DNA of 30,340 bases, taken from a virus. The notes below the pieces were generated by a model. The model saw only the letters and a program-made list of their open reading frames with translations. It ran no database searches and was not told the origin of the DNA. The stretch's first letter is position 1. Each line of letters opens with the position of its first letter. The DNA lies in IMG/VR virus record IMGVR_UViG_3300042507_006967, positions 1 to 30,340 of that record; one strand, 5' to 3'. Positions 3,992-22,055 of this stretch are shown here, piece after piece. The translations under genes were made by a program, and so were the position numbers.

Positions 3992-4006
3992 AATAATTAA
4001 AGTAAA

Positions 4007-4041: not shown

Positions 4042-5748
4042 TTAAACGCATCCTTCTTTTTTACTATATTCTAAGAATAATTCATGATATTCTTTAAATT
4101 CATCAGGATTTATAATATCAATAGCTTTCATATCTGGGGAAATTCCAGGTCTCAATGTATATCCAGAACAAGAACTAGCACCACATTCTAGAAATGCTTT
4201 ACTTAATAAATAAATGTTTTTCTTATTTCCCTCATTGGTTTCATTCATATATTGGAAAATAGTCATCAGTAGAGGTGAAACAAAACGACTTCCAATATTA
4301 GAATCATTAATTTTTAGACCTCTTTCAATCATATTATTTAGAAGAGTTTTGTAATCTTCATAACTAAAAGTATCAGAATTTGTTTTATTTCCAATTTTCA
4401 AATTCAAAAGAAATGAAGTGACTGAATTGATTTCATTTTTATTAAAATCTAAACCATTTTCAGCATTGTAATTAGGAAGTGTTGATAAAAGTAAAGCAGT
4501 TCTATGTTTTCTAACGTCTTGGAATATACATTCTAATACTATATTAGAAGAACCATTTTCTCTTGTACCTGAACCATCTGCACCCAAACTAATCAGGTAT
4601 TCAGCTATTTTTAATGAAATTTCATCTTGTTTTTCTTTTGAATATCCACCATAATTTGCAGATGCTAAATTCATAAGTGGTGTCATACCATTAGAAAGCG
4701 GAGTATTAATTTTATCTTTATTTTTATCAAAGAAGTTTTTGATAATACGCATATTATATGTTTGCAACCCTACTATAATAATTTTGTTTAATTCTTTATC
4801 TGACAATTCACCATCCATAATAGAATCAACTCTTAATATCAAACCACCAAGAGAAGAACGCTCAGAGTTTGGATTTTTAAGGAATTCAGAAAGGAATGAT
4901 TGCAAGCATTCTCTAATATTAAGAATTTTACTTTCTGGATATTTATTAGGAGATTCTAAAAAGTCATTCCAAAATTCTAAAATGGCATCACCAAATCCTT
5001 GTGATGAATACTTTTGTAAGAAATTATCAAAAGAAACAGAACTATTAGGACAATTATTAAATGAAAATGTACCATTAGATCCGAAATGTAATTGATGACT
5101 AAGTTCAGGATTTTTATAGTTATAAAAAATATAAAGAGGACCTGTGCTTGTATAACTATGCCAATGACCACCACCCCTTCTATTATCAGAATTATCTCCA
5201 GCAGTACACCAATTGCATCCTTCTTTTCCACCATGCCATCCCGCCCAGTATCTTGATTGTTCCCAAGTTAAAGGAATAACAATAGCCCATTCTGAATTAT
5301 CAAAAATTTTAATAAAATCACTCTCAATAGCAATTTTACTCATTTTAGTTTGTAATTTCTTTGAAATATTAAGTTTATTATCAGAGATAAATTTAACGAC
5401 TTCTGTAAATAATTCTGGAGTTTTAATATTTACAATATTCTTCCAATCTGAATATTCTTTAGGAATCCTATTTTTACCAGCATCATAAATTACCAACATA
5501 TCAAAAGCATTAGACAAGAAATTTATGAAATCTTCATAATTCATCGTCTTATACATATTGAATAACCATTGACGATAATTCTTATTTTCAGTAGGATCTG
5601 CAGCAAAAACAGATTGACCTAATTCATCTGTCATTTGAATACCATCTAATGATTTAGAATCAATGTGATATTTTTTATAATCTTCCCATTTCTTTTCTTC
5701 CAAAATTGAAGTGAAAAATGATTCAAATAGTTTAAATGAAGTAATCAT
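4042..5748 (-). CDS. WCTA-domain protein with ankyrin-like C-terminus
   Basis: This 568-residue protein begins MITSFKLFESFFTSILEEKK, an aromatic leader with an I-L-E site that could be a prohead-protease cut. The central part (about 150-230) runs WAIVIPLTWEQSRYW, then NWCTAGDN (W180, C181), then a Gly/His stretch and GPLYIFYN (203-210). A pattern of 'WCTA ... Y ... GPLYI' recurs in phage proteins of unassigned function as far as I recall, and no activity is known to me. Residues about 330-425 look ankyrin-like (GMTPLMNLASANYGG, AEYLISLGADGSG), echoing the bona fide ankyrin protein encoded just downstream. A terminator follows the stop. The gene is probably co-transcribed with the peptidoglycan-binding gene 9 nt upstream. 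Function unknown; possible packaged effector. Confidence 0.75.
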   Translation of the reverse strand: MITSFKLFESFFTSILEEKKWEDYKKYHIDSKSLDGIQMTDELGQSVFAADPTENKNYRQWLFNMYKTMNYEDFINFLSNAFDMLVIYDAGKNRIPKEYSDWKNIVNIKTPELFTEVVKFISDNKLNISKKLQTKMSKIAIESDFIKIFDNSEWAIVIPLTWEQSRYWAGWHGGKEGCNWCTAGDNSDNRRGGGHWHSYTSTGPLYIFYNYKNPELSHQLHFGSNGTFSFNNCPNSSVSFDNFLQKYSSQGFGDAILEFWNDFLESPNKYPESKILNIRECLQSFLSEFLKNPNSERSSLGGLILRVDSIMDGELSDKELNKIIIVGLQTYNMRIIKNFFDKNKDKINTPLSNGMTPLMNLASANYGGYSKEKQDEISLKIAEYLISLGADGSGTRENGSSNIVLECIFQDVRKHRTALLLSTLPNYNAENGLDFNKNEINSVTSFLLNLKIGNKTNSDTFSYEDYKTLLNNMIERGLKINDSNIGSRFVSPLLMTIFQYMNETNEGNKKNIYLLSKAFLECGASSCSGYTLRPGISPDMKAIDIINPDEFKEYHELFLEYSKKEGCV

Positions 5749-5757
5749 ATTATAGTA

Positions 5758-7038
5758 TTATATTATTATAGTTTTTTTAGGTTCACCATCTTTATTAGAT
5801 TCAGTTTCTGGCCATACTTTTTTCGCTTTAGTAGATTTATTTTCCCCTTCTTTATCTACCTTTTCTTCAGAAATATAAGGGATATATGATTTTAATATAT
5901 TTTCTAAAGCCCAACGAGTTTGTTTACCTACCCTACCATCAACTTTTAATTTATTACCATTCTCGTTGTATGAATTTTCTTGAAAACGGATAATAGCATT
6001 GTGGGTAAGTTCACCAAATTTACCAGTAAGACCACCTTTAAATAATCCCATAGATTGAAGTATTCTTTGGATTGTTTTTACAATAGAACCCTCTTGAATA
6101 CCATTATATCCAATCCAGGTTTTTGTCTCTGAATGAGATTGCAATTCTTCTGCATATTTTTTAGCAAGTCTTTTACTAATCTTTTCTTCTTCAATTAAAA
6201 TACAATTATCTATAAGGAGTTCTAAACAATGTACAATAACTGTTGCTCTCCAAGCATTATCAGCACCAGGAATTAAATCATAATAACGCATATGATAATA
6301 TGTATCCTGAATTGACTCTGACATCTTTTTAAGAGGTTTTTCCATAACCGAGATAAATTCTGAAAGATTTGTGATTTCTGTGCTTTCTCCAAAAATTGAA
6401 TGAAATGTCTCTAAATCATATTTCTTTACAAAATCTGATAAACTTACAAAAGTTTGACTCGGTTGATAATTGCTAATGAGGTTTGTTAAGAAAACACCAA
6501 TCATATAAATTGGATTTCTATACTTTCTCGTTTTAATCAAAATTTCCTTTTGTACTACATCAATAGCACTACTTGCATCCGTGTAATCAGCATCGCTTCT
6601 CTCAATTTTTACTTTACTTAGATTTTTAATTTGATCTTGTAAAATAGTTGATAAGAATGATTTATAGTTTTTGATGTCCTCTTTAAGAATTGAAGCTACC
6701 CCTTTGATTTTAGCTTTGTTTTCTTTCATATACATCAAATCCTGATATGCTTCTATATCTTCCAAATCTGTTGTTTGCTCAAGTAGAGTCAGCATACCAT
6801 TTGTACAAGATTTATATCCAACATCAATCATATTCCATAATGAAGATGTAGGAAGAAGGGCTTCTTGGAATGTTTCATTACCATTAAAAATTTCAATGGT
6901 TGATTGTGCGGAAAGGGCTGTAATCTGATATAAGTCAGACATTCTAAATTCCTTTAGTGTCAGACCATAATAACCATCATAAATACCCGAAACTTCGTTG
7001 AGTTTCTTTTCTTTGAATATGTTAAATCGTGTAATCAC
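5758..7038 (-). CDS. Peptidoglycan-binding putative internal virion protein
   Basis: This 426-residue protein starts MITRFNIFKEKKLNEVSG, nearly the same leader as the product of 11284-13398. LNE at 13-15 fits the L/I-x-E prohead-protease site. Residues about 314-385 form a PG_binding_1-type three-helix domain (GSIVKTIQRILQSMGLF...LTGKFGELTHNAIIRFQ...KVDGRVGKQTRWALENIL). The last 40 residues are polar and charged. The middle 250 residues are helical and not recognised. No transmembrane segment or catalytic domain is evident, so the protein probably anchors to cell wall rather than cutting it. A GATATATA box lies 22 nt upstream of the start, just after a terminator, so it heads a two-gene operon. 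Domain call confident, location inferred. Confidence 0.8.
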   Translation of the reverse strand: MITRFNIFKEKKLNEVSGIYDGYYGLTLKEFRMSDLYQITALSAQSTIEIFNGNETFQEALLPTSSLWNMIDVGYKSCTNGMLTLLEQTTDLEDIEAYQDLMYMKENKAKIKGVASILKEDIKNYKSFLSTILQDQIKNLSKVKIERSDADYTDASSAIDVVQKEILIKTRKYRNPIYMIGVFLTNLISNYQPSQTFVSLSDFVKKYDLETFHSIFGESTEITNLSEFISVMEKPLKKMSESIQDTYYHMRYYDLIPGADNAWRATVIVHCLELLIDNCILIEEEKISKRLAKKYAEELQSHSETKTWIGYNGIQEGSIVKTIQRILQSMGLFKGGLTGKFGELTHNAIIRFQENSYNENGNKLKVDGRVGKQTRWALENILKSYIPYISEEKVDKEGENKSTKAKKVWPETESNKDGEPKKTIII

Positions 7039-7130: not shown

Positions 7131-8042
<912 letters not shown>

Positions 8043-8061: not shown

Positions 8062-9546
8062 TTAAACAATTGTTTGAGACCCTGTTATACTACCACTATT
8101 TTGATATTTTTGAGCATATCTATTAGAAATGGTTTGCATAAGACTTTTGGTCTCATTTCCAATCATACCATCCACTAATTTAGCCTTCATTGCTGCTTGG
8201 AATTTTTTTACTCCTTCTTCAGTAACCTTATCAAAATAAGAATCATTCAATTTGGATGGAGGAAGAGCATTCATATAAACAAGAAAATTATTAATAAGTT
8301 TAACCATATCAGATGACATTTTCTGTGAGCCTGACTTATAAACTAAACCACCTCTTGTATAAAATCCTTTAGAACTCAATTCATTTGAAGATGCTATTAG
8401 ATTTAACGCTCTTTGCTTTTTAGATTCAAGAGCTTGTGCTTCTGCTTCTTTTTTAAGTTCTTCTTCTTTTTGAACACCTGCCATTTCAACCTCAATATTC
8501 AAATTGATGAGTTTAAGTGCAAGAATAACAACCATACACATGAACATAACTTGTAGAGAAGGTGTAAAAATATTCTTTACAATTTCTTCTTGTTCAGAAA
8601 ATACACGTTTAATCAAAATTGAAGAAACCTCATTAAGTAAAGTTGATAAGGGTTCAAATACACTAATGTCCGTTGAAGGTATAGATTGCTTCAACGCTTG
8701 TATTGCATCTGGACCTACTATTGACCCATCTAAATTAATTGAACCATAATTTTCACCAAACTTCTCTTTTAGTCTTTGAGTATATGGAAACATTAACATG
8801 ACTAATTCAAAAAATGATGAAAAACGATCATAAACATCGGTAGATTCAAGCATTTTATTCAAATCTATATTAGAACCTATCATTACAGCAGGAAATGAAG
8901 ATGCTGAATCAGATTCAATCTTTTGTAAATCCATAGCATCTATTTTAGTATAAAGTGCTTTAAGACCTACAGTTGAACCATATTGCTCTAAACTAGCTAA
9001 AGTTTGTTTAATAATAACTGATAAATCAACATTATACAACGAAATGAAACTTTGTCTTAATGCTTCAGATTTAAAGTCAACAGAACCACTTTTTTTAAAC
9101 ATTTTTACGACTTCATCTATCTTTGGGATAACGGAAGATATTCCACTTGGACTTGTTATCTCTGAAACCTTTTTAACAGATTTCTTGAATCCTTGAGTTT
9201 TAGTTGCATCTAAAACTTGTTGAAATCCTTGTGCTAATTCTTTTTCAATAGTTTGAACTTTATTTTGAATATATCCAACTTGTGAACGAATAAACTCAAA
9301 AGAGTTTGTTATAGTTGATTTATCTTTTCCTAAAATAGAAGAAAGAGAAGGGATGATTGATTTGATAAAATTGTGCATCGCTTCAGACTTTTCAATATCC
9401 AAACCCTCAAAAAGTTTGTCAATTGTTAATTTATTTAGTCTGAATTCTGCATCAGTATCAAAAAAACCTGTCCAATCACTAGAAATAAAATTCCCTTCAT
9501 TGATATTGAAATCTAAGTTTGGATCGTTAAAATTCTTAAAAAGCAT
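8062..9546 (-). CDS. Membrane-spanning peptidoglycan-binding putative internal virion protein
   Basis: This 494-residue protein starts MLFKNFNDPNLDFNINEGNF, with INE-G at 15-18 matching the putative leader cleavage site. It is mostly helical, with a strong transmembrane segment at about 318-338 (LQVMFMCMVVILALKLINL) preceded by FTPS, then a charged Glu/Lys/Ala helix (346-370). A C-terminal PG_binding_1-like domain follows at about 402-465 (VKLINNFLVYM...GVKKFQAAMKAKLVDGMIGNETKSLM). It appears paralogous to the product of 9918-11267: both have GLEID/GLDIE near residue 50, KKSGS-x-D and I/T-PSLQ before the hydrophobic segment. A GATATATA box lies 26 nt upstream. Wall and membrane contact is consistent with acting during genome entry, which is inference. 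Confidence 0.78.
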   Translation of the reverse strand: MLFKNFNDPNLDFNINEGNFISSDWTGFFDTDAEFRLNKLTIDKLFEGLDIEKSEAMHNFIKSIIPSLSSILGKDKSTITNSFEFIRSQVGYIQNKVQTIEKELAQGFQQVLDATKTQGFKKSVKKVSEITSPSGISSVIPKIDEVVKMFKKSGSVDFKSEALRQSFISLYNVDLSVIIKQTLASLEQYGSTVGLKALYTKIDAMDLQKIESDSASSFPAVMIGSNIDLNKMLESTDVYDRFSSFFELVMLMFPYTQRLKEKFGENYGSINLDGSIVGPDAIQALKQSIPSTDISVFEPLSTLLNEVSSILIKRVFSEQEEIVKNIFTPSLQVMFMCMVVILALKLINLNIEVEMAGVQKEEELKKEAEAQALESKKQRALNLIASSNELSSKGFYTRGGLVYKSGSQKMSSDMVKLINNFLVYMNALPPSKLNDSYFDKVTEEGVKKFQAAMKAKLVDGMIGNETKSLMQTISNRYAQKYQNSGSITGSQTIV

Positions 9547-9618: not shown

Positions 9619-9882
9619 TTAAGCATAATATAATTGTTCTTTAGACTTATTTTGAGTTTGTGACTTTGAATCTTCTTTTTTTGAAATTGGAATTAGTTCG
9701 GATAAACCAACTAATTCATATAAAGCAGTTAAGTCATAAACATCAGCATTGATTTTTATTGTACGAACTCTTTCTTCAGATGATTTTGTTTCTTCATTAA
9801 CTCTTTCATCTAAAATAATGTTTTTATGAATGATATTGTTTTCATTCATTTGAACGAAATTTTTAAAATTTAATATTCTCAT
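9619..9882 (-). CDS. Small putative internal virion protein
   Basis: An 87-residue product consisting of little more than the shared leader, MRILNFKNFVQMNENN, then a charged polar segment. MNE at 12-14 fits the leader site, and a second candidate, VNE-E, lies at about residue 29. Its N-terminus is very like that of the product of 7131-8042 (R-I-L-x-F-x-x-F). The only other feature is a short hydrophobic patch, DLTALYELVGLSELIPI, in the middle. No domain was recognised. In size and make-up it is the closest match in the block to the small internal proteins of T4, which are a cleavable leader plus a small charged body. It lies between two larger members of the same block and shares their direction. 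Role inferred only. Confidence 0.65.
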   Translation of the reverse strand: MRILNFKNFVQMNENNIIHKNIILDERVNEETKSSEERVRTIKINADVYDLTALYELVGLSELIPISKKEDSKSQTQNKSKEQLYYA

Positions 9883-9917: not shown

Positions 9918-11267
9918 TTATACATTAGAAAGTTTTTCTACATCTTCCATAAAGACTTTCATAATAAAACGAGTATCTTTACCAATTCTACCATCAACCT
10001 TTATATCTTTACCTTTAATTTTAATATTTTGTTGAATTAAACGAACAGCTTGTCCTAAAAACTTTTTATCAAAATCACCTTTATTAAGGTATTCACTACC
10101 AACATTTTTAGTAATTAATCCAAGTTCATAGAAAAACTTTTTAAGTGCAATAATCATTTCTTTTTCACGATCAGTATAAGATTTATTTTCATAAAAAACT
10201 TTTGTGCTTTCCATGAAATCTGTACCTAAAAGATTATTATATGATTGTACCACTTTTTTAGTTTTTTCAATAGTTTCTTTAGAAACTTCACCATTTCCTA
10301 TTTCTCCTTTTACTGATTTACCTCTACCTAAACTTTTAACTATAACAGGTAAAGTCATAAAAGATACAAGAGCGATATATAAACTTTGCAAAGAAGGGAT
10401 TGTGATATTTTCTGAATATACTTCGGAGAGTTTTTCAACTTCTGGTTGTACAATTTGATTTCCAACACTATCAATCACATTCTTATAATTGCTCAATTCT
10501 GAAGTTGTAATAGATTCCGAACCTAATAATGGTATCAAAATAGAACTTAAAAACTCAAAAGGATTTTGATTATATGTAATATAAGAAATACCCTTTATTT
10601 TCATTGTTGATAAAGCCATTTCAAGCATTACTGAAATTCTTTTGATAGGATCACTAGATACTAATTCTTTATTGCTATCAAAAGAACCACTCTTTTTAAC
10701 CCAACCGCCTTGAATGTTTTCAGGTACAAAAGAATTAGATTTTAAACTAGGAAGTCCTAAATTATCAATAACATCATAAACAGAACTTTCTAAACCTGTT
10801 GAATTTGAATTAACTTTATCACTTAAAGAAGTAATAAACTTGTTAATCATATCAGCGTTAAAAGAATTTACTAAATTTTTTAATGGAGTAAAATCAATAT
10901 CAGATTCTTCTATTGTTATAGTTTTTTTAGATATATTTTTTTCAACATTTTGAATATATGAACTCACATATTCAAGTTGTCTAACTACTATTAAATTTGC
11001 TGTTTTTGTTTCAGCTGTACTTTCAATGAAAATATCTTTACAACTTGGTAGCATTGAAGCTAGTTTAGGATATGATTCATCAGATGTATCTATTTCTAAT
11101 CCACGCAAAAGATGATAGATACTTAATTGATTTAGTGTATCTTTTGCACTTGTTCTAAGTAATCCTCCTGAAAAACTTTCATTTATAGCAGATCCCGATG
11201 GAAAACTTCTATTAAGAGAGGTTTTTACTTCTTTTACTTTTTTAAAGTATGAATTATCAAATTCCAT
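9918..11267 (-). CDS. Membrane-spanning peptidoglycan-binding putative internal virion protein
   Basis: This 449-residue protein has the leader MEFDNSYFKKVKEVKTSLNR and SAINESF at 26-32, where INE-S fits the proposed cleavage site. A hydrophobic segment at about 289-312 (ITIPSLQSLYIALVSFMTL) is likely membrane-spanning. A C-terminal PG_binding_1-like domain lies at about 366-440, ending IKVDGRIGKDTRFIM, very close to KVDGRVGKQTRWAL in the product of 5758-7038. It is a probable paralog of the product of 8062-9546 from the order and local matches (KKSGS-x-D, PSLQ before the membrane segment). It lies 16 nt downstream of the large coiled-coil gene, with no promoter box of its own, so it belongs to the operon that starts at 14626. 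Confidence 0.78.
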   Translation of the reverse strand: MEFDNSYFKKVKEVKTSLNRSFPSGSAINESFSGGLLRTSAKDTLNQLSIYHLLRGLEIDTSDESYPKLASMLPSCKDIFIESTAETKTANLIVVRQLEYVSSYIQNVEKNISKKTITIEESDIDFTPLKNLVNSFNADMINKFITSLSDKVNSNSTGLESSVYDVIDNLGLPSLKSNSFVPENIQGGWVKKSGSFDSNKELVSSDPIKRISVMLEMALSTMKIKGISYITYNQNPFEFLSSILIPLLGSESITTSELSNYKNVIDSVGNQIVQPEVEKLSEVYSENITIPSLQSLYIALVSFMTLPVIVKSLGRGKSVKGEIGNGEVSKETIEKTKKVVQSYNNLLGTDFMESTKVFYENKSYTDREKEMIIALKKFFYELGLITKNVGSEYLNKGDFDKKFLGQAVRLIQQNIKIKGKDIKVDGRIGKDTRFIMKVFMEDVEKLSNV

Positions 11268-11283: not shown

Positions 11284-13398
11284 TTATCTATTTGTTAATA
11301 CCGATTGCATTTGCTGTATATATCCCTGAACATTTTGTCTTGATTGTATTTCTTCAGGTGATACAACTCCTGCTAATATTTCAGGAGTAGCCATATTCAA
11401 AAGTTCTATTTGTTTTGCAAGATATGCTAATGTTAAAACATCCGCTTTACCATTAATTTCTATTTTATCGTTTGCATATTTACCATTTGTTTGAATACCT
11501 GCTACTATTTTTGAAAGTTCTACATCATAAATTCCATTAACCTCACCATCATAAAGATTTATCTTCTTTAAAGAATCTTGAAGAAGTTTTACATCAGAAC
11601 CTGTATCCCCTATTTGCATATATTGTCGTTCTTGTCCGTTATTATCAAAACGTTTGATAAGACCAATAGGTTTATCAAGATTTTTTGAGTCTGCTGTAAT
11701 AGGAACATTACCTGAGAAGAAAAAATTCTCAAAAGAAGATAGCATCGCTGCATATGCTGATATTGTTCCAAATGTGTATAAGCCTGGAGTAGGTAATTGG
11801 AAAGAACTTTCCCACTTTGTCTGTATAGATTGAAGCATCTGCTGTGGAGAAGCCATAGCCATCAAATAGTTATTAAAGGTTGGACTTGCAATCTGATCAA
11901 GACATTTTTTAGCATCATCACTTGACATAATTCTATTTGACTCAAGAGATTCAACACAAACCTTAAAGAAATCATGAGGATCTCCACTACTTGCCTTTTC
12001 TTGTTGTATTTTATAAACATTATGAAATGTTAAAAAGGGTTCAAATTTATCTTCAAACATTTCTAATTCTAATGCTGTTAATACTTTTGTTATAGGTTCA
12101 TTAGCAGTTTCTTTATTAGATTTATCAAACCATTGAGATAGCCAATAAATACCATAACCAATAGCACCCCATTTAATTGCAGCAGTAAACATTTTACCTT
12201 TGAAATAAGCAGATACCCAAGACAATAATTTATTAGTTCTATCTTGTTGGCGGATTCTTTGTTCTTCTAATTTTCTTAATTTCTCTTGTTCTTTAAGATA
12301 TCTTTTTTGATCTTTCAATGATTTTAATTCTTCGCTCTTTCTTTTTGATTCTTCTTTTTTCTTTTTATGATTTTCCCAAAATTCATCCCATTTGGATTTT
12401 TTATTAGCATCAATTGAATCATTTGCTTTGCCCTTTTTACCTTCACCGATTTTAACTTCACCAACTTTTAAATTTTCAACTTTACGAGGATTTTCCTTGA
12501 TTGGTGTAGACAAATCTATTTTCCCACTATTAATCGCTTCTTCTCCTTTAAATTTAATAGATGTTGTTACATTTTCAAATCCAGGAATTTTTCTCATAGC
12601 TTCTGTATCAATCTTTGAAAATTGAGAAGCGTTAACATTTATCTTTTCTACTCCACTTGCTACAGATTTTACCTCATCATCTACATGAGAAACAGCACTC
12701 GCTATACCCTTTTCATCTTTTGCTACCCCTCTTAATGTTTCACCAGTTTTTGTAAAAATACCCTTAAATAAAGACTTTCCACTTTTTACTATTTCAGATG
12801 CTCGACCAAAATTATATCTTTCATTTAATTCGCCATATTCTAAAGATTCATTAGTTCCTGAAGGGTTTGGCTCTATAACTTTATTATTCAGAGAATTAAC
12901 CAAAGAGTTTATAGGTTGTTCAGATTCATACCACCCCTTTAAAGAATTTGTTATAATAGTTCCAATAGTTATAGGATTGCTTTTCAAATCATTCAATACC
13001 GATTCATCTAATTTATTAATCTCAAAATCTGCACTCATACTTGAGATTTCATTAAGAATCTCTATTATGTTCTTAATATAATAATTATTAGTTACCTCTA
13101 TCATCGTACTATCTACTGTCAAAGGTTCTTCTAATTTTAATGTAGATAACTCATCTTCCTTTAAAATTTCCATAAGTTGAGCATATATTCCAATTCTCAA
13201 ATTGGCAATTGGAGTATTGTACATTTGTTTAAGACCTGCTGAAAGTTCATCTTCACCTAATGCAGCTTTATAAGCATCAGATGGGGAATATTCTCCAAAA
13301 AGTTTGCTCACAGGTTTAACAAGTCTTTGTTCAACCCAATCAGGAAACACAGACTCTTCGTTCAACTTTTGTTCATATTTATTAAATCTCGTAATCAT
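11284..13398 (-). CDS. Large coiled-coil, membrane and peptidoglycan-binding putative internal protein
   Basis: At 704 residues this is the second-largest product of the block. The leader MITRFNKYEQKLNEESV carries LNE at 12-14; another L-N-E (201-203 region, GELNERYNF) could be a second protease site. Residues about 336-396 form a highly charged coiled coil rich in Lys, Glu and Arg, directly followed by a transmembrane segment at about 403-423 (MFTAAIKWGAIGYGIYWL). A PG_binding_1-like repeat lies at about 593-662 (MQIGDTGSDVKLLQDSLKK...GIYDVELSKIVAGIQ). The organisation (leader, helical body, coiled coil, membrane span, wall binding) suggests a multi-part protein spanning envelope layers. Its stop lies 16 nt before the next gene and its start 4 nt after the preceding gene, within one operon. 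Confidence 0.8.
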   Translation of the reverse strand: MITRFNKYEQKLNEESVFPDWVEQRLVKPVSKLFGEYSPSDAYKAALGEDELSAGLKQMYNTPIANLRIGIYAQLMEILKEDELSTLKLEEPLTVDSTMIEVTNNYYIKNIIEILNEISSMSADFEINKLDESVLNDLKSNPITIGTIITNSLKGWYESEQPINSLVNSLNNKVIEPNPSGTNESLEYGELNERYNFGRASEIVKSGKSLFKGIFTKTGETLRGVAKDEKGIASAVSHVDDEVKSVASGVEKINVNASQFSKIDTEAMRKIPGFENVTTSIKFKGEEAINSGKIDLSTPIKENPRKVENLKVGEVKIGEGKKGKANDSIDANKKSKWDEFWENHKKKKEESKRKSEELKSLKDQKRYLKEQEKLRKLEEQRIRQQDRTNKLLSWVSAYFKGKMFTAAIKWGAIGYGIYWLSQWFDKSNKETANEPITKVLTALELEMFEDKFEPFLTFHNVYKIQQEKASSGDPHDFFKVCVESLESNRIMSSDDAKKCLDQIASPTFNNYLMAMASPQQMLQSIQTKWESSFQLPTPGLYTFGTISAYAAMLSSFENFFFSGNVPITADSKNLDKPIGLIKRFDNNGQERQYMQIGDTGSDVKLLQDSLKKINLYDGEVNGIYDVELSKIVAGIQTNGKYANDKIEINGKADVLTLAYLAKQIELLNMATPEILAGVVSPEEIQSRQNVQGYIQQMQSVLTNR

Positions 13399-13402
13399 AG
13401 AA

Positions 13403-14626
13403 TTATTGGGCTATTTGAGTTTCTTCTTCTGAAAAATCAGTAATAAGTTCATAGATAACTTCGCCTAAAACCCAAAACGCATAAATTGTTAGGAGAAACA
13501 TTACGAACTGACTTATACCTGGAATTGGAATTAATATACCCGCCAAACCAGCAATGATTTTGTCTATCAAAATATATTTTCCAAAATCCGACATTGCTGA
13601 AATCAATATTGCAAAAGTCGGACCCATAACCTTAAATTCATAAGGTCCTGCAACAGAAAAATGTTCATTAAGAAATTTTGAAGAATATTCAAGTGCTTGA
13701 TTACCATTAGTTTTGATATATTCCGAAAATTCTTTAATCCAACTAAATGGGGGAAGCATATCCAATTTAGAACAAGACCATTCATAAAACTTTTCAATCA
13801 TTTCAATAGACTCGTTCAGTTTTTTCATATCACTAAACGATTTTATTCTCATTGAAGAAGAATTGAGTTTTTTATGATTATTTATATCTACAATACCTTC
13901 CGTGATCGCCGAAGGTAAAAGTTCTATAATTGAATTTTTAATGTTGTTTTCAATATGATTATCTACTTTTGATTCATTAACGGCTTTATTTAATGACATC
14001 GTTACTTTAGAAGCAAATACTTCCCCATGTATAATATTACTTACGCTATCAACAAACATAGAACTTAATTGTCCAGTTTCTTTTGAAAGCGTATTCCATA
14101 TTTCTTTATATTCTTCTGATGAGGTTTCATTTAAGGATTCTTTGATTCCTGAAATCTGTTGATTCAAAGAAATCGTTATTTGTCTTTTTAGAGATTTATT
14201 ACCAGAAAACCAATTATTTGTTTCAATTTTAACTGCTTCCCATGTGCTTTTAACACTATCCATAATTTTCTTTACAACATCTTCAATAGCTTTTGCTAAA
14301 TTTGTTCCTAATTCAACTACCCAATTAACTGCACTACTAACAACACTTTTAACTGTATCAGCAGTTTTTCCAACAGTATCTTGAAGCCAAGTGTTCAATT
14401 TTGAAAACCACGAATCTTCCTTTAACATATACCAATCATAAAAAGATAATTGTTCATTACTTATAAATGAAAGAACATATCTTTGCGTTTCTGTTAAATA
14501 TATGTCTTCTGATTCCATAATTGCTTCAGCAATAGGGATATAGCATTTTTGAGTAATTTTCGTTTTAGAAAATTGCTTTGATTGAAAATAATCGTTGAAT
14601 GAAAGTATTTGTTCTCTATTTTTCAA
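13403..14626 (-). CDS. Membrane-inserting putative internal virion protein
   Basis: This 407-residue protein has the leader MKNREQILSFNDYFQSKQ and, at 31-35, PIAEA; I-A-E-A equals the site cleaved in T4 internal proteins as I recall them. Residues about 80-140 are amphipathic helices rich in Val, Ala and Trp (DTVGKTADTVKSVVSSAV, NWVVELGTNLAKAIEDVV), resembling tape-measure or pore-forming segments. Residues about 332-393 are strongly hydrophobic, with two or three membrane spans (IIAGLAGILIPIPGISQFVMF). The tail is acidic. No peptidoglycan-binding or enzymatic motif was found. It is the first gene after the GATATATA box at 14651. A pore or channel former is plausible but unproven. Confidence 0.72.
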   Translation of the reverse strand: MKNREQILSFNDYFQSKQFSKTKITQKCYIPIAEAIMESEDIYLTETQRYVLSFISNEQLSFYDWYMLKEDSWFSKLNTWLQDTVGKTADTVKSVVSSAVNWVVELGTNLAKAIEDVVKKIMDSVKSTWEAVKIETNNWFSGNKSLKRQITISLNQQISGIKESLNETSSEEYKEIWNTLSKETGQLSSMFVDSVSNIIHGEVFASKVTMSLNKAVNESKVDNHIENNIKNSIIELLPSAITEGIVDINNHKKLNSSSMRIKSFSDMKKLNESIEMIEKFYEWSCSKLDMLPPFSWIKEFSEYIKTNGNQALEYSSKFLNEHFSVAGPYEFKVMGPTFAILISAMSDFGKYILIDKIIAGLAGILIPIPGISQFVMFLLTIYAFWVLGEVIYELITDFSEEETQIAQ

Positions 14627-14650
14627 ATTATACTCTTTAATTTTATCTAT

Positions 14651-14658
14651 TATATATC
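14651..14658 (-). promoter_or_regulatory. GATATATA late-promoter-like box
   Basis: The minus strand reads GATATATA followed by ATAGA, 24 nt upstream of the ATG at 14626, in the 57-nt gap between the M15 peptidase gene and the membrane protein gene. No terminator hairpin was seen in this gap. Confidence 0.6.
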
Positions 14659-14683
14659 TGTTTTTATATTTGTTTTATGAATA

Positions 14684-15664
14684 TTACTTTGTCCAAAATG
14701 CACTCTTATGTCCTAATACATTTCTTACATCAACATGAGTAAATTTACTTCCAATATAAAGACCAATACCACCCTGATGAAAGGATTTTAACCATGTAGT
14801 GATTTCAGAAGGGGAAACTCCATCTATTCTGATGTCTGCTGCATTTCCAAACATATGTTGAGAAATTCCAGCCCCACCTATCTTTTTATTGTATGTAGGA
14901 GTTCTATATCCTGATATAATTGTAAGTTTCTTATTGTAATGTGCTATTATTTTTTCAAGAAGTTCTACTAAATATGGATTGATAAGAATAATGTCAGAAC
15001 CATCTTTACAAGCAAAATCTTTTACTTTTATGTGTTCTGATACATTTTTATCGCCATCTTTTGATTTGCTATATTGAATAGAAAATCTGTATCTATCAGA
15101 ATATTTTGAAAGTGGGAAATTTATTCCTTCTTGTCCACCTTCTCCCATACTAACAGATGATGGTGGTAAAATTATGCTTGATGGGGTGGTAACAGAAGGA
15201 ACTTCTTTAGGAAGTTCTTTTTCACCCTTTGTTTCACCTTCAACCTCTTTATCTTCAGGTTCTTTTTCTTCAAATTCTAAAAGAAATTGTATAAATTCAA
15301 AGGGAATTGTATTTTGAATTGTTATAGGTAGTTTAAAATTAGCAATCATACTTTTAACTGCTTCTAAAGTAGCAGCATCTAAAATTCCATCTGCTTTATG
15401 ATTCTTCAAAAAATCATAAGAAATTAAAATAGATTGTAAAACTGAAATATCTTGATTCTTTTCTGAAATAGTTAATATCTTTGTGCCATTAATAACATCG
15501 TCTGAAAAATAAGTCTTGGTTATTTCTTTTACCAATTCTTCTTTTTTTGATTTATCTTTTTCATCTTTAATTAGTTTTATGGCTTCTTCAGCATTCTGAA
15601 TTTTTATTTCATTCAAAACGAAATCTGAAAAATTTAGAATAAATCTATTTTTATTTAAATCCAT
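14684..15664 (-). CDS. Peptidoglycan-binding M15 (M15_3-type) peptidase
   Basis: A 326-residue probable zinc D,D- or L,D-carboxypeptidase or endopeptidase that cuts peptidoglycan peptide bridges. The leader MDLNKNRFILNFSDFVLNEI has LNE-I at 17-20. Residues about 64-112 are a PG_binding_1-like domain (ISVLQSILISYDFLKNHKADGILDAATLEAVKSM). An acidic Pro/Ser linker (132-175) follows. The catalytic domain at about 210-318 has SGYRTPTYN (251-259), SQHMFGNAADIRI (268-280) and FTHVDVR (308-314), giving likely zinc ligands H270, D277 and H310. All expected residues are present. It is encoded next to a second, differently built M15 peptidase and is the last gene before the 14651 promoter box. Enzyme family confident; packaging in the head is inferred from the leader. 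Confidence 0.88.
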   Translation of the reverse strand: MDLNKNRFILNFSDFVLNEIKIQNAEEAIKLIKDEKDKSKKEELVKEITKTYFSDDVINGTKILTISEKNQDISVLQSILISYDFLKNHKADGILDAATLEAVKSMIANFKLPITIQNTIPFEFIQFLLEFEEKEPEDKEVEGETKGEKELPKEVPSVTTPSSIILPPSSVSMGEGGQEGINFPLSKYSDRYRFSIQYSKSKDGDKNVSEHIKVKDFACKDGSDIILINPYLVELLEKIIAHYNKKLTIISGYRTPTYNKKIGGAGISQHMFGNAADIRIDGVSPSEITTWLKSFHQGGIGLYIGSKFTHVDVRNVLGHKSAFWTK

Positions 15665-15686
15665 AACTAATAATTATTTTTATAAA

Positions 15687-16658
15687 TCAAACAATATATT
15701 GAGTTGATTGAGGTGAAGATAGTTCAAAGTGCATACCGTCCTTTCTTCTTCTATAATGACCGCCCCAATAAAATCCTAATTTATTAGCAATAGGGACAAG
15801 TTCTCTAACACTACCTTTTTCTCCAACAGCAGGTGGAGTAACAAATAAACCATTGTATTTTGTATTAATATCAAAAGCAACCCCGAAGGCATGATTACTC
15901 AATGTTGTATTACTACCTCTTATAAATCTTGGATAATAACATCCATTAAATGTTATAACTCTTGAAAGCAAACCTGCATTTTCCCACTCTTGCCATAACT
16001 GAATCATCGATTTTGCGGCCAATCTATGACATTTCAATCTTGTGGATCTGGGGTTTTGTATTTTAGCAAGTTGAGGGATTTCTATTGTGATGATATTATC
16101 TTTTTCAAAATTATTAGTTATGATTATACCACCATCACCTTTTGATTTATATTCTAATGGACCATAAAGTCTTTGAGCATCTTCAACGGTTAAATATTTT
16201 AAGTCTGTCGGCACTGGTGGCCAATTATATCTATCTTCACTCGCTTCTTTTGGAAGGGTAGCAAAAACTTTACTCTTTACTTGTGGACTTTTTGTAATAT
16301 CTGTAGAGGTTATTGTATAAGTTGTAAATAAATCTATGATACCCTTTCCTATTGGTTGATTTACATCAAATGAAACATTGTATTTAGAACTATATGATTT
16401 TATGGCATAAATAGTTTTTTCGTCAATTTTTCCACTCATTTCATTATTTTTCAAATATCCTAAACCACATAGTATTGTTTGTAAAATTTTAACATCTTGA
16501 CTTTCATCTCCAATAGCCAATGATAATTGTCCTGATTGAAGTTCATCAGAAAAAAATTCTTTACTCACATATTGAACAATAGATTTAGTTTCTTCTGAAT
16601 TTTTTGAATTACGAAGAGCGTCAATTATGCTTTTAGGGGTTTCTAAATCAACTAACAT
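15687..16658 (-). CDS. Peptidoglycan-binding M15 (VanY/M15_4-type) peptidase
   Basis: This 323-residue probable zinc peptidase acts on peptidoglycan. Residues about 46-95 form a PG_binding_1-like domain (GDESQDVKILQTILCGLGYLK...GKIDEKTIYAIKSY). The catalytic domain covers about 190-313, with NGCYYPRFIRGSNTTLSNH, then HAFGVAFDIN (256-265) and DGMHFEL (307-313). H256, D263 and H310 are the expected zinc ligands, and WGGHYRRRKDGMHFE is typical of M15_4 members. Unlike most of its neighbours it lacks the aromatic leader and the x-N-E site, so it may be located elsewhere (tail or baseplate). Its N-terminal 40 residues resemble residues 25-60 of the other M15 enzyme (KEFFSDEL versus KTYFSDDV), so the two share an ancestral N-terminal module. 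Confidence 0.88.
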   Translation of the reverse strand: MLVDLETPKSIIDALRNSKNSEETKSIVQYVSKEFFSDELQSGQLSLAIGDESQDVKILQTILCGLGYLKNNEMSGKIDEKTIYAIKSYSSKYNVSFDVNQPIGKGIIDLFTTYTITSTDITKSPQVKSKVFATLPKEASEDRYNWPPVPTDLKYLTVEDAQRLYGPLEYKSKGDGGIIITNNFEKDNIITIEIPQLAKIQNPRSTRLKCHRLAAKSMIQLWQEWENAGLLSRVITFNGCYYPRFIRGSNTTLSNHAFGVAFDINTKYNGLFVTPPAVGEKGSVRELVPIANKLGFYWGGHYRRRKDGMHFELSSPQSTQYIV

Positions 16659-16667
16659 ATTTTATTC

Positions 16668-18467
16668 CTATTTCTGTAATAATTTCAATAAATAATCTGC
16701 ATATTTATCTACTACCAATTTTAGATATTCTTCAACCGCTTTATTCTTATTACTTATAAAAAAATAATTGCTCGGATTTTTATCATAAATAATAAATGAA
16801 CGATTATTTAATTCATCTCTGAAATATGAATCAGTCGAATTAATCAAATCATAAATCATTTCTTGATTAGCTTGTATGATTTTACTCTTTGAAGAATTTT
16901 TTATAACTCCAATAAGTTTGCTTTGGGTTTTATCAGGATTCTTGATAACCGATTCAATGTCTTTTATTTGATTATAAAGTTCCTGATAAAATTGGCTACT
17001 ATTAACTAATCGTTCTGATTCTGTTTTAGGTGCTTTCTCCTTTTCAGAAGCAATGAACATATCAATTTCATTTTGAGGTTCTTCTGTATTTTCTGAAGGT
17101 GTATTTTCAGATTCAATATCAGAAGGCATTTCACTTGCTAAAGAATCTTTAACGAATGAATAAAAACTATTAAGAATTTCTGGATTCTCATTAATAATGG
17201 TAGCAAGTTTTAAACCCTCATTATTAGTACCATCCATAAAATAATAAAGACCATCTACCATTTTTGATTTAATGAATATCTTCTTTTCAAGAGATTCAGG
17301 GCTAATTGTTTTATATTTACCAACCATAATATCATCAAGCATGATACTTATGAATGATGAAATTATTTGCTTTCTTTGAGTTCCTGAACTTACTTTATTA
17401 AAAATGGAATATAGTTTTGTTTGAATTGGAGTTTTGCCTTTTACACTTTCCAATGATAAAGTTGCATTTATTGCATTTGTAGTTTCTTCAACAATTAGAG
17501 TTTTTCTATCTACATTTTCCTTATCAGAAATTTCATATCCTTTTTCCACCTTTGGTTCAGAAATAGTCTTTTCTTCAGCACTCGGTTCGCTCTTTTGTTG
17601 ATTTTGTTGAGGCACACCTGATAAAATTTCATCTTCCATAGATTTTGAAGCATCTATAATTTCTTCTTTTTCTTCTTGTGGAATTTCTTCTATCTCTTTT
17701 TTCCAAGAACTCAAAAGTTCTTTTCTATCATAAGGTGGATTACCAACGATTAAAACTGGACCTTCAATCCCTTCAACTGATATATCTACAATATCAACAT
17801 TTTCAAATTTATTACTCTTAATGAGTTTTTTAAGAGCATTAAAAGGAACTTGTATATTTTGTGAAAGACTTGATAAAAATATCATCCCTGGAGTATCAGT
17901 TGTCTTATCATAATCAAAATAAGGATACTTTACAAGAAAACGAGTCACTTGTACATAAGCATTGTCTATGTTATATTCAGGAGTTGAGATTTCTTTATCG
18001 CTTTTAAGATATGACATAAAGTCTGAAAATATAGACTCATACATATATCTACTCGTTCTTTTCTTTCTTTTTGTACGATAACCACTATATCCAAAATCTT
18101 CTATGTAATCTGAAAATGTATTTATATTATAATCAGAAGAAGATTTAGAATAACCTTTACCAATCTTTTCTGAAGGTAATATTACTAAAACATCCCCACT
18201 CCAAACTTTAGAATTAATTTTAATAACTTTGAGATTTTCAATATTGAGTTCTTTTATGACTTTTTTAATATACTTCTCAGTCGTAACTATAGCTTGAGCA
18301 AGTTTTTCCAAAGGACAAAGCCCAGGTAAGCCTGTATTTACTTCATAGCCGTATTGCTTATTATTATTCAAGAATACTTGGATACGCTCCAAAGTTTTCT
18401 TGTATTCTTTTTGCTTTTTATCTTTTAAAAAATCAAAAAAAGATTCATGCACATTTGAATATCTCAT
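16668..18467 (-). CDS. Protein with duplicated ~100-residue N-terminal domain, unknown
   Basis: This 599-residue protein contains an internal tandem duplication. Residues 2-96 (SNVHESFFDFLKDKK...FLNNNKQYGYEVNTGLPGL...GDVLVI) align with 140-241 (YMYESIFSDFMSYLKSDKE...FLVKYPYFDYDKTTDTPGM...GPVLIV). Each copy ends in a beta strand of the form V-K/D-I-x-x-I/V...G-x-VLI. A Gly/Ser/Tyr and then basic spacer (RTKRKKR, 131-137) separates them. Residues 265-330 and 445-490 are acidic, Gln/Glu/Pro-rich linkers around a helical region. No enzymatic motif or membrane segment was seen. The N-terminus is aromatic but has no clear x-N-E site. It lies second in the operon that starts at 18941. Function unknown. 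Confidence 0.75.
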   Translation of the reverse strand: MRYSNVHESFFDFLKDKKQKEYKKTLERIQVFLNNNKQYGYEVNTGLPGLCPLEKLAQAIVTTEKYIKKVIKELNIENLKVIKINSKVWSGDVLVILPSEKIGKGYSKSSSDYNINTFSDYIEDFGYSGYRTKRKKRTSRYMYESIFSDFMSYLKSDKEISTPEYNIDNAYVQVTRFLVKYPYFDYDKTTDTPGMIFLSSLSQNIQVPFNALKKLIKSNKFENVDIVDISVEGIEGPVLIVGNPPYDRKELLSSWKKEIEEIPQEEKEEIIDASKSMEDEILSGVPQQNQQKSEPSAEEKTISEPKVEKGYEISDKENVDRKTLIVEETTNAINATLSLESVKGKTPIQTKLYSIFNKVSSGTQRKQIISSFISIMLDDIMVGKYKTISPESLEKKIFIKSKMVDGLYYFMDGTNNEGLKLATIINENPEILNSFYSFVKDSLASEMPSDIESENTPSENTEEPQNEIDMFIASEKEKAPKTESERLVNSSQFYQELYNQIKDIESVIKNPDKTQSKLIGVIKNSSKSKIIQANQEMIYDLINSTDSYFRDELNNRSFIIYDKNPSNYFFISNKNKAVEEYLKLVVDKYADYLLKLLQK

Positions 18468-18476
18468 AGTATAAAA

Positions 18477-18941
18477 TTATATTTCTTCGTGGCTGATTAC
18501 AGCAAATTTAGATTCTCCAACTTCTTCAATAGGCATATTCTCTTCGCTACTGATATAACGAATTGAACCATCTTGAAGAGTATATTTTCCAGCAGGAAAC
18601 GAGTTATTGAGATTGTTTTTAGTTGTATAACGAATAAGCAATTCAATTTCTTTTGCATTCTGTTTCCCTACAAGATTTGAAACAACAAGATTAATCTGTG
18701 CGTATTCAATAGCAGGACCAAATATACCCAATGCACCCCCTGATAAAGGATTAGATGTAAAAGTTTGACTATCACCATAATCTCTGTGAAGTGAAAGAAT
18801 TTCTACTTTAACTTTGTATGGTTTCAATACAACACTATTAATATGCTTTTTAATAGTCTCTAAATCTTCTTTCAAAGGTTCACCAGCAATAACTTTTGCT
18901 TCATTGACCTTGTTCTTCTTGTATTCTTCAAAAATTCTCAT
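18477..18941 (-). CDS. Small putative internal/structural protein
   Basis: A 154-residue protein whose leader MRIFEEYKKNKVNEAKV contains VNE-A at 12-15, followed by a compact domain of mixed alpha and beta character: VVLKPYKVKVEILSLHRDYG, a Gly-rich turn GGALGIFGPA, then strands AQINLVVSNLV and ELLIRYTT. No known domain was recognised. It is the first gene after the promoter box at 18968 and the first downstream of the portal terminator, the genomic place where T4 keeps its prohead core genes. That position, with the leader, favours a prohead-core or packaged protein. It is separated from the next gene by 9 nt. Confidence 0.68.
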   Translation of the reverse strand: MRIFEEYKKNKVNEAKVIAGEPLKEDLETIKKHINSVVLKPYKVKVEILSLHRDYGDSQTFTSNPLSGGALGIFGPAIEYAQINLVVSNLVGKQNAKEIELLIRYTTKNNLNNSFPAGKYTLQDGSIRYISSEENMPIEEVGESKFAVISHEEI

Positions 18942-19009: not shown

Positions 19010-20641
19010 TTATACAGCAGGCTCTTCAGTTGCTGCTCCTGTTTCAACATCTTCATCACCTGGTTTATCACCAGCTTTCTTTTCTTTCTCTCTTATCATT
19101 GCTTTATTTTCTTGCAATTCATCACGAGTAAGATTCATAAAGTTTTCCATAGCAAAATCTAAATCGAAATAAGCATCATCTTTTGTCTTCGGAATATTAA
19201 GAAGTTCGTTGATAGCAGAAACACGTTTTTGCATAGTTTCAACCTTTCTTTGAGTATCAAAACTATTATCTCTATTAAATTTTATACCTACACTTGATCT
19301 AAAAAGATGATCTCCTTGAAATTCAGGATATTTCAACAATAGTTGTAAAACCAATGGTTTAAGCATTATTTCTTGAAAACCTGAACGAAGTCTATTTACA
19401 AAATTAAAAAATCTAATTTCGTCTCTTTGGATACCTTCAGCACTTGAACTGAAAGTACCTCCTCCACCCTCTCCAAAACGACCCAATGGGATTTTAGAAG
19501 CTCTACGGAGTTTTAATTCAAAGTATTTCAAGAAATCAGGATTAGATAAATCCACTCCCTGTCCACCAATTACCTCAACATTAGGTGAATTTCCATCCTT
19601 TGATGGAAACATAAAATGCTTAAAGAATGGAATAGATGGTCTTCCGTTAATGCTCAATGTTCCATCAGCATCATTGAAAAATATTTCTTCTTTATAGTTA
19701 TTAAGAATTTCAGAAAGTTCTTGTTTTGCTTTTTGAGGTGAATTACTTCCGATTGGTATGGTCATTTTCAAGCGAAATTGAGCATACATAATATGCCACA
19801 TGACTTTTGAGTTCTCTATGAGTCTGAGCAAGTTTAATGGTCTTACAAGACGCTCAACATAACTTACTCTGTCCATTTGCATATTTTGAGCATATGCAAT
19901 GTAAATGACAGATGAATCATAAATAACTCTTTCTACATCATTTCCGATTTTTTGAATCCATACAATATATTCTTCACCATCTTCACCGACAATAGTTGAT
20001 AATTGCAAAGTAGCTGGATCTAATTTATTTAACGCAATTACTTCTTCACCTTCTTCATCAGTTACAATTTCAAATGCTAAAAATCCATCTACAAGATATT
20101 GTCTAAATAGATTCCATGCTTTTGTATTATTGTTAAATCCAAATTTAACATACAATTTTCTAAATTCTTCATGAATTGTATTTACAATTTCTTCTTTCTT
20201 TTCGTCACTTAAAAAAGATTCTAATCCCTTTGTATCTGGATAACAAAACCAATTCTTATCATCATAAACAATAGCTTCATCTGAAATTGTATCTAATATC
20301 TCTACAACCTCATCATTCAAAGAAAATGAACGCAAGAAATCACGTTTAGTAATATAATTAGAATCATATATAGCAAGTGCTTTTAGACCACCAATATCTT
20401 GAATAGCCATAGCAGAAAGAAGTCTTTGATCCCATTGAGCCGTTGAATATCCACCATATACTGAATGACCTATTGCTCCAGAACCACCTTGATTGGTTTC
20501 GGTTTCACCAGCACCTTGTCTACGCTGAATGATTAAATCATCATAATACATCCCAAAAGAAGACAATTTTCTCACATTGTCTGCTGGTCCTGATGTAAAA
20601 CCATAAGTTTTAGCACCGTCTTTAGAAATAAATCCTGCCAT
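19010..20641 (-). CDS. Portal vertex protein (T4 gp20-like)
   Basis: This 543-residue protein has the features of the T4-type portal, the dodecameric ring through which DNA is packaged and ejected. Recognisable blocks are the wing region (WNLFRQYLVDGFLAFEIV, DEEGEEVIALNKLDPATLQ), the segment RLVRPLNLLRLIENSKVMWH that precedes the long helices, FRLKMTIPIG, and the late block KLRRASKIPLGRFGEGGGG...EGIQRDEIRFFNFVNRLR. The length is close to that of T4 gp20. The C-terminus is a flexible acidic tail (GDEDVETGAATEEPAV). It follows the small conserved gene by 18 nt in an operon with gp4 and is closed by a terminator. The assignment is firm. Confidence 0.93.
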   Translation of the reverse strand: MAGFISKDGAKTYGFTSGPADNVRKLSSFGMYYDDLIIQRRQGAGETETNQGGSGAIGHSVYGGYSTAQWDQRLLSAMAIQDIGGLKALAIYDSNYITKRDFLRSFSLNDEVVEILDTISDEAIVYDDKNWFCYPDTKGLESFLSDEKKEEIVNTIHEEFRKLYVKFGFNNNTKAWNLFRQYLVDGFLAFEIVTDEEGEEVIALNKLDPATLQLSTIVGEDGEEYIVWIQKIGNDVERVIYDSSVIYIAYAQNMQMDRVSYVERLVRPLNLLRLIENSKVMWHIMYAQFRLKMTIPIGSNSPQKAKQELSEILNNYKEEIFFNDADGTLSINGRPSIPFFKHFMFPSKDGNSPNVEVIGGQGVDLSNPDFLKYFELKLRRASKIPLGRFGEGGGGTFSSSAEGIQRDEIRFFNFVNRLRSGFQEIMLKPLVLQLLLKYPEFQGDHLFRSSVGIKFNRDNSFDTQRKVETMQKRVSAINELLNIPKTKDDAYFDLDFAMENFMNLTRDELQENKAMIREKEKKAGDKPGDEDVETGAATEEPAV

Positions 20642-21284: not shown

Positions 21285-22055
21285 TTATTGTTTTAATGGA
21301 TTAAATCCAAATGGAGAATCAACTAATTCATACTCATACCCATGAACACAATCTTTTCCTAAAAATGGTCTTGAAAAATGGTCTTCAATCAAATCTTCCC
21401 ATTTTCTTTCATTTTTATGACCCCAACCTCCGACCTTCTTTAATAAATCAGACTTTTTCCTAACCCAAGAAAAATGGTGAATATAATACTTATTACGATA
21501 TCCTGCCTTATAAAATCCATCCATCTTATCTATTATCGCATGACCACCTCTATCATATTTAGTAAAGACATTTCTTTTATTAAGAATATCCCTTTTAACA
21601 TAAATATGAGCATGCTCTAATGTTTTACTTCTGTATTTGAAGTCTCTGAAATACCAATACATACCAAAGGCGTATGTTTTATATTTTTGCCAAAAACCAT
21701 CTTCATTTTCTAAATATGACTGCAAAAATAAATCAGAATCTATGATTTCATCTGAATCAAGTTGCATAATATAGTCGGTTTTACACTTTTGTATTCCTAT
21801 CCATCGAGAATAACAATTCCAATAAAAATCAAAAGGAACATCTTTAACCCACTGATATTCAAGAATTTCTATATTTTTGTATTGTGAACAAAAAGACTTC
21901 AATTCATCAATACTTTGTTTATCTTCAGGTTCACCTGTGTATAAATGACTGGAAACTGAAATAAAAATGTTATTTGCAAACTTTAAGCATTGTTCAATAT
22001 TCTTTTGAATAAACAATTTATCTAAAGTGCAATAAGGAATAACTACATCAATCAT
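21285..22055 (-). CDS. Family 2 (GT-A) glycosyltransferase
   Basis: This 256-residue protein has a GT-A nucleotide-sugar transferase layout. The N-terminal strand MIDVVIPYCT begins at residue 1, followed by an alpha/beta region. The metal-binding DxD appears as QLDSDE (D100 and D102). A C-terminal part has HAHIYVKRD and YIHHFSWVRKKSDLLKKVGGWGH, a pattern common in GT2-like enzymes with an HxxW segment. It would transfer a sugar from a nucleotide donor; the acceptor is unknown. No membrane anchor was seen, so it is cytoplasmic. It is encoded inside the head operon between gp4 and the small conserved gene, which points to modification of a virion protein or of DNA rather than host cell-wall synthesis. 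Acceptor prediction is inference. Confidence 0.82.
   Translation of the reverse strand: MIDVVIPYCTLDKLFIQKNIEQCLKFANNIFISVSSHLYTGEPEDKQSIDELKSFCSQYKNIEILEYQWVKDVPFDFYWNCYSRWIGIQKCKTDYIMQLDSDEIIDSDLFLQSYLENEDGFWQKYKTYAFGMYWYFRDFKYRSKTLEHAHIYVKRDILNKRNVFTKYDRGGHAIIDKMDGFYKAGYRNKYYIHHFSWVRKKSDLLKKVGGWGHKNERKWEDLIEDHFSRPFLGKDCVHGYEYELVDSPFGFNPLKQ

Follow-up and report, generated by a model that had tools for sequence, protein, structure and literature searches.

The M15_3-type zinc peptidase of an adjacent gene pair is, in the explanation we consider probable, a processed cargo protein of the phage head, with its M15_4-type neighbour an unprocessed partner derived from an endolysin. The homology of the two proteins, their zinc ligands, their adjacency, the restriction of a leader to one of them and, in a relative, the protease and capsid-site context can be read directly from the sequences. 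More interesting than the pair itself is its setting, a cluster of leader-bearing head genes with many peptidoglycan-directed modules. The window, i.e. the whole stretch of DNA analyzed, is the entire 30,340-base IMG/VR record IMGVR_UViG_3300042507_006967, and in addition to the features listed in Table 1 it encodes a gp2-like DNA end protector and a gp4-like head-closure protein (PHROG). By portal protein the closest sequenced relatives are uncultured megaphages, Prevotella Lak phages, PAU and Chryseobacterium phage MA9V-1, each with less than 60% identity. The host of PAU has been reassigned to Sphingobacterium, as reported in PMC3738902, and a strong Shine-Dalgarno-like motif was present in none of the 28 window ORFs of at least 100 aa; from these relationships and the missing motifs a Bacteroidota host is likely for the window phage. 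Two glycosyltransferase-like genes lie amid the head and tail genes, of which 26683-28032 matches a GtrB-like PHROG (6e-7), while 21285-22055 has no PHROG match and was recognized by eye only.

Table 1. Positions in the window of the peptidase pair, its domains and the surrounding genes.
Feature	Position	Strand	Remarks
Portal protein, T4 gp20 type	19010..20641	(-)	phrog_213 E 6e-66; upstream edge of cluster
Cluster gene, leader MRIFEEYKKNKVNE	18477..18941	(-)	81-90% identical across other lineages
Cluster gene directly upstream of M15_4, conserved M[RK]YSN[VI]xE start, possible short leader	16668..18467	(-)	[VI]xE at residue 8, 6/6 rows
M15_4/VanY-type zinc peptidase gene, 323 aa, without leader	15687..16658	(-)	
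Shared base of M15_4, aa 3-114	16317..16652	(-)	PG_binding_1 at 16380-16502
M15_4 catalytic domain, aa 248-313	15720..15917	(-)	Pfam PF13539 E 5e-17
Gene of the M15_3-type zinc peptidase (326 aa), comprising leader, shared base, disordered linker and M15_3 domain	14684..15664	(-)	
Leader, aa 1-19 ending FVLNE, putative capsid-targeting propeptide	15608..15664	(-)	LNE invariant, 7/7 rows
Shared base of M15_3, aa 20-131, helical segment and PG_binding_1-like domain	15272..15607	(-)	PG_binding_1 at 15320-15457
M15_3 catalytic domain, aa 218-312	14729..15013	(-)	Pfam PF08291 E 4e-21; 1lbu Z 8.2
Cluster gene with C-terminal hydrophobic segments and a possible IP[IV]AE site (aa 34)	13403..14626	(-)	Site in 5/5
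Cluster gene, leader MITRFNKYEQKLNE	11284..13398	(-)	C-terminal PG_binding_1-like module 11485-11604
Cluster gene, leader ending INE (aa 30)	9918..11267	(-)	Paralogous to 8062-9546; PG-binding match at C-terminus weak
Small cluster gene, leader MRILNFKNFVQMNE	9619..9882	(-)	
Cluster gene with INE-ending leader and a hydrophobic segment (aa 333-351)	8062..9546	(-)	C-terminal PG_binding_1 8137-8304
Cluster gene, leader ending INE (aa 25)	7131..8042	(-)	
Cluster gene, leader MITRFNIFKEKKLNE	5758..7038	(-)	C-terminal PG_binding_1 5908-6090

Two M15 peptidases with a common N-terminal base

The preliminary description had reported two adjacent M15 peptidases of different subtype with all zinc ligands present in both, and we arrive at the same picture. 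The two ORFs span exactly 14684-15664 and 15687-16658, and their Pfam matches to M15_3 and M15_4, respectively, both lie above cut-off. The motifs read as quoted earlier, with SGYRTP at residue 251, SQHMFGNAADIRI at 268 (H270, D277) and FTHVDVR at 308 (H310) in the M15_3 protein, and SNHAFGVAFDIN at 254 (H256, D263) and DGMHFE at 307 (H310) in the M15_4 protein. H256, D263 and H310 of M15_4 were invariant in 17/17 aligned rows, and the M15_3 ligands were kept in all six complete rows, the seventh (L008) stopping at its contig end. By their His/Asp/His ligands, Pfam assignments and fold matches both proteins belong to peptidase family M15, with predicted activity. The predicted structure of M15_4 has a pLDDT of 85; that of M15_3 (66.6) is of low confidence overall, including leader and linker. 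The best structural matches of both models include PG-binding folds, M15 folds and hedgehog N-terminal domains. For the M15_3 model the best of these was 1lbu (Z 8.2, rmsd 3.2, 108 aligned), the Zn DD-peptidase of Streptomyces albus G, a secreted bacterial enzyme that likewise places a PG-binding domain ahead of its M15 domain but has no leader of the M15_3 kind. The M15_4 domain resembles Ply500-type and VanY/LdcB-type M15 peptidases in fold (2vo9 and 4jid, Z 6.7 and 7.8) and sequence (2vo9, E 1e-6), although these occur in another modular context. Among named phages, the M15_3 domain (14684-15664) was best matched by peptidases of human-gut phages and Microviridae (gokushovirus-type) at about 43-53% identity, which points to wide transfer of this domain.

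The adjacent pair was found in six lineages (the window, G006, L008, G001, L070/L071 and G004). A further record, G003, is the same phage as the window across their overlap and ends inside the M15_3 gene. The zinc motif S.H..G.A.D was not flagged among the listed ORFs in the portal neighbourhoods of LR756500, Lak-C1, PAU and MA9V-1.

That the N-terminal modules match, and that different catalytic domains were attached to a common base, had been proposed from short motifs, and both statements are well supported by the N-terminal alignment suggested at that time together with profile and tree data. The first ~112 mature residues of the two proteins are homologous almost end to end, with significant similarity in BLASTP (2e-12, 31% over 77 aa) and HHalign (probability 99.8, E 7e-28, 108 columns). 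HHalign pairs residue 3 of M15_4 with the first M15_3 residue after LNE, so that M15_4 looks like its partner minus the leader. A profile of the base retrieved only the pair at E<1e-40 in the ORF sets of the window, G001, G003 and G004 (in G003, which ends within M15_3, only M15_4 was listed); the next match, at 4e-4, fell in a neighbouring family of cargo proteins, in their PG-binding-like C-terminal module, and other cluster proteins in these ORF sets gave weak matches at the PG-binding level only. The shared module, which the preliminary description had not identified, is PG_binding_1-like by sequence profile and recurs in neighbouring leader-bearing genes. Pfam PG_binding_1 matched the bases of M15_3 and M15_4 with E 6e-4 and 9e-3; against the curated cut-off of 23 bits the protein scan gave 20.4 and 16.7, and the genome search placed M15_3 over (23.5) and M15_4 under it (19.5). 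Helical PG-binding folds were also the structural matches of M15_3 residues 52-132 (6tci, Z 8.2, rmsd 2.1, 72 aligned) and M15_4 residues 29-114 (9h68, Z 7.9, rmsd 2.1, 76 aligned); Z values of this size are suggestive only by themselves, and the sequence profile concurs.

Base identity was 25-30% between partners within one genome, compared to means of 47% among M15_4 and 54% among M15_3 orthologues, indicating that the duplication predates these lineages. In the base tree, which we rooted by choice with distant M15_4 enzymes as outgroup, the M15_3 bases group together (support 80/98), the paired M15_4 bases are poorly separated from them, and the bases of the pair split from those of distant free-standing M15_4 enzymes at 100/99. 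One duplication with a swap of the catalytic domain fits this tree. The simplest story would start from an endolysin-like PG_binding-M15_4 enzyme that gained the helical segment and was duplicated next door, after which an M15_3 domain replaced the catalytic domain behind a leader.

The N-terminal leader and its likely function

The M15_3 protein carries a conserved propeptide-like leader with a hydrophobic-x-Glu site in its orthologues, whereas M15_4 does not. Residues 1-23 of the M15_3 model have a pLDDT below 50, and among the seven aligned leaders LNE is invariant while other residues vary. No conserved [LIVMF]xE was found in the first 45 aa of M15_4 across the six lineages. A leader overlooked through a wrongly called M15_4 start was considered and ruled out: in 6/6 lineages the reading frame is closed by a stop 2 to 6 codons before the start, which leaves no room for one. 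The x-N-E leader first noticed on only one of the window proteins is thus a conserved difference between the partners.

Similar leaders are frequent in the neighbouring genes. For a motif of only three residues, [LIVM]NE within 45 aa of the start was present in 8/11 window genes between 5758 and 18941 versus 8/74 internal 45-aa segments (p 2e-6), and in 7/10 (p 6e-7) and 7/15 (p 9e-5) cluster genes of G001 and G004, respectively. Two more window genes (16668-18467 and 13403-14626) have other conserved hydrophobic-x-Glu sites, leaving M15_4 alone with none. Across all ORFs the excess over shuffled N-termini was clear for the window (10 vs 2.6) and G001 (31 vs 14.2), weak in G004 (11 vs 6.5, sd 2.3) and absent from G003 (6 vs 4.7). 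Within several orthologous leaders residues vary and a hydrophobic P3 and a Glu at P1 stay (VNE/VHE and INE/ISE, with VDE in a G004 paralogue); the YNE of the G004 row in the 9918-11267 family runs contrary to the rule for P3. Each of these family alignments comprises the window and at most five further lineages, some having two to five rows, and the alignments of 8062-9546 and 5758-7038, in which the L070 row is the 9918-11267 paralogue, were excluded from the conserved-site counts.

In T4, internal proteins are targeted to the core by N-terminal propeptides of 10-19 residues, which gp21 cleaves off (described in PMC9026906 and PMC9958956), and longer propeptides with a similar inferred role are reported from giant phages (PMC5694885). 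The relative G001 encodes both an S77 prohead protease (Pfam 3e-11) and a Gp23 capsid protein (8e-40). An S77 protease was present in two of the seven records searched (G001 and G007), which may be fragments, and in none of the ORFs of the window, itself a 30-kb fragment. In a single nine-sequence alignment of capsid proteins, made without LR756500, LNE stands just ahead of the conserved domain in eight sequences and LME in that of PAU; according to the ORF list, the LR756500 capsid protein reads LYE near the presumed propeptide boundary. In the cultured relative PAU, five proteins with an MK[TS][LI]xxLYExxLNE start are encoded near the genes for portal, protease and scaffold, and two of the five bear the annotation internal capsid protein. 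Because a relative encodes a gp21-like protease and a gp23-type capsid protein with LNE, and because 8/11 cluster genes of the window carry such leaders, the M15_3 leader is best read as a capsid-targeting propeptide of the T4 type, from which we infer processing and packaging of the enzyme.

In the sequence of events that we propose, the M15_3 protein, encoded like its partner in a head-gene cluster downstream of the T4-type portal gene, would be made with its propeptide and built into the prohead core. The phage S77 (gp21-like) protease would trim it after LNE, and the enzyme would stay in the head until it exits with the DNA and cuts wall peptides at infection, with the PG_binding_1-type base holding either enzyme on peptidoglycan. 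The M15_4 enzyme, endolysin-like by ancestry, most likely acts unprocessed, either in lysis, which we slightly favour, or carried along by a partner. For these uncultivated phages, the model predicts packaging, cleavage and ejection as well as the activity, the bond that is cut and the part played by M15_4. Alternatively, M15_3 could be a lysis enzyme whose N-terminal tag has another function.

Two further observations concern G001. One 672-aa protein (L156:6459-8477, G001 166459-168477) combines the S77 protease with a subsequent coiled-coil-like part that is repetitive and contains several [VI]NE motifs, and is possibly a protease-scaffold fusion that digests itself. Three proteins (L148:12509-13234, 14054-14782 and 17996-18730) have the common leader MKY[LV]KLFE[NS]WLNE and no Pfam or PHROG match, and their genes alternate with those of signal-peptide-like proteins on the opposite strand.

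The head-gene cluster around the pair

PG_binding_1-type modules were detected by genome search in 5/11 cluster genes (5758-7038, 8062-9546, 11284-13398, 14684-15664 and 15687-16658), three of them over the curated cut-off, and 9918-11267 gave a weak sixth PG-binding match (PG_binding_3, E 0.047). The PG-binding families of the cluster also match in G001, G004 and G006. Hydrophobic segments (hydropathy threshold 1.5) were present in 6/6 members of the 8062-9546 family and 3/5 of the 9918-11267 family, the two being full-length paralogues (HHalign 1e-38), and two or more occurred in 5/5 members of the 13403-14626 family. A tblastn search of 50,697 named-phage records with 8062-9546, 5758-7038 and 13403-14626 gave no match at E 0.01.

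To judge from their leaders, most cluster products look like tagged, head-packed proteins. The combination of leader, hydrophobic segment and C-terminal PG-binding module would, by analogy, suit ejected, envelope-spanning proteins of the kind proposed for T7 and crAss001 in PMC10172136. Extending the analogy, T4-type jumbo-phage relatives might pack a cell-wall kit of trimmed M15 peptidases and several trimmed proteins that unite a hydrophobic segment with a C-terminal PG-binding module, which would be ejected before the DNA, breach the wall and secure an envelope-crossing conduit in the manner of a T7- or crAss-like ejectosome; we regard this as speculative and rather unlikely in its full form. 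It is improbable that the leaders are scaffold-core signals only, marking core proteins that are degraded or lost at maturation and whose PG-binding-like fold serves protein-protein contacts. Such a role would agree with the degradation of T4 core proteins by gp21 (reported in PMC9958956) and with the weak PG-binding scores of several members, but both M15 domains keep all their zinc ligands across lineages, which would be odd for purely structural proteins.

Leader-like starts were also seen in a window protein with ankyrin repeats (1781-4012, Ank_2 E 1e-72) and its neighbour without Pfam family (4042-5748). An ankyrin protein of G004 (L164:15651-16274) has a clear FILNE leader, suggesting that ankyrin proteins may be head cargo as well. 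The 150-aa product of 1332-1784 starts with ...NNSLNE and contains, by eye, a CxC...CxH zinc-finger-like motif; -NE leaders are likewise encoded by the genes that match it in G001 (67046-67495) and G004 (64997-65455).

Role of the M15_4 enzyme and comparison with known systems

The preliminary description had suggested that one enzyme is packaged in the head and the other held elsewhere. For M15_3, location in the head is reasonable because the leader asymmetry is conserved and the leader looks capsid-targeting; for M15_4, location elsewhere is a possibility on which relatives point both ways. Bacterial genomes, many of them of Bacteroidota, commonly encode free-standing PG_binding-M15_4 enzymes (287 stretches confirmed, of which the best 80 were kept), which also occur in other viral contigs. 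These distant relatives begin right at the PG-binding domain, and by eye some of their viral genes adjoin small hydrophobic, lipoprotein-start or membrane genes in an arrangement resembling lysis cassettes (10 proteins picked from 5 of the 9 loci listed). Spanin PHROGs matched weakly at two such loci (E 0.007 and 0.028), other neighbour annotation being mostly uninformative. Since distant relatives are free-standing and some lie in such settings, a lysis role of M15_4 is favoured, and like a canonical endolysin the protein has a PG-binding and a catalytic domain and no hydrophobic signal segment.

There is somewhat less than an even chance that M15_4 is the phage endolysin, encoded within a late head cluster, and M15_3 an entry enzyme, the two acting in separate compartments. 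The distant relatives with their PG-binding start, hydrophobic or lipoprotein-type neighbours and weak spanin matches, the abundance of such enzymes in Bacteroidota genomes and the leaderless state of M15_4 in 6/6 lineages all speak for this assignment. Against it, a search for hydrophobic segments in M15_4 and in the proteins encoded on either side of it, a head-cluster gene product and M15_3, found none, so that M15_4 has no holin or spanin candidate beside it, and a reading of the window pair as a lysis cassette was rejected for this reason. G001 furthermore carries a separate PG_binding-CHAP gene and an SLT protein with a hydrophobic N-terminus as possible wall enzymes, and the M15_4 base has the extra helical segment of its leadered partner, which is absent from the distant endolysin-like relatives.

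Another possibility, to which we give about one chance in three, is that both enzymes are head cargo and that the leaderless M15_4 enters by binding M15_3 or another core protein via the shared base. M15_4 sits within a run of leader-bearing genes, and a second M15_4 of G004, with a -VNE leader and no base, falls inside the paired clade (support 100/97, with 99/87 for its subgroup, in a tree that took in the 22/80 bacterial loci passing the motif filter). In G004 the M15_4 catalytic domain thus also looks head-addressed, and it occurs both with base but no leader and with leader but no base. Entry via the base is at odds with the only 25-30% identity of the two bases. Overall, the compartment idea is plausible for M15_3 and might also apply to M15_4.

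Each element of the proposed system has a known counterpart in the T4 internal proteins, the phiKZ inner body or T7 gp16. Like T4 IPI-IPIII and Alt, the leader-bearing cluster products have a short putative N-terminal propeptide followed by a hydrophobic-x-Glu site and are encoded in clustered head genes, with S77 and Gp23 in a relative; unlike them, the predicted cargo, with its predicted processing, includes M15 wall peptidases and PG-binding proteins. The phiKZ inner-body proteins are head proteins as well, present in abundance and with five of the six genes in a single cluster (PMC13282480), but belong to another phage lineage, are other proteins and have the cleavage motif SxE (PMC5694885). 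T7 gp16 and other capsid-inner virion-associated lysins are wall-degrading enzymes carried in the capsid and ejected (PMC6116005); gp16, however, belongs to the core of a podovirus, in contrast to an M15 peptidase that would lose its leader to a protease in a T4-type head. In the open PubMed Central text searched we found no description of M15 peptidases as prohead-protease-processed cargo of T4-type phages, the targeted cargo of T4-like phages described there comprising anti-restriction proteins, host-modifying enzymes and proteins of unknown role.

Unlike that cargo, the tagged set found here is rich in peptidoglycan-directed modules. Phages of this group, whose named relatives have Bacteroidota hosts, may therefore deliver wall enzymes by way of the head. 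The presence of [LIV]xE after a short leader provides a simple sequence rule for the prediction of such cargo, and the natural domain swaps, with leader on or off, base on or off and two M15 catalytic types, probe what addresses proteins to the phage head.
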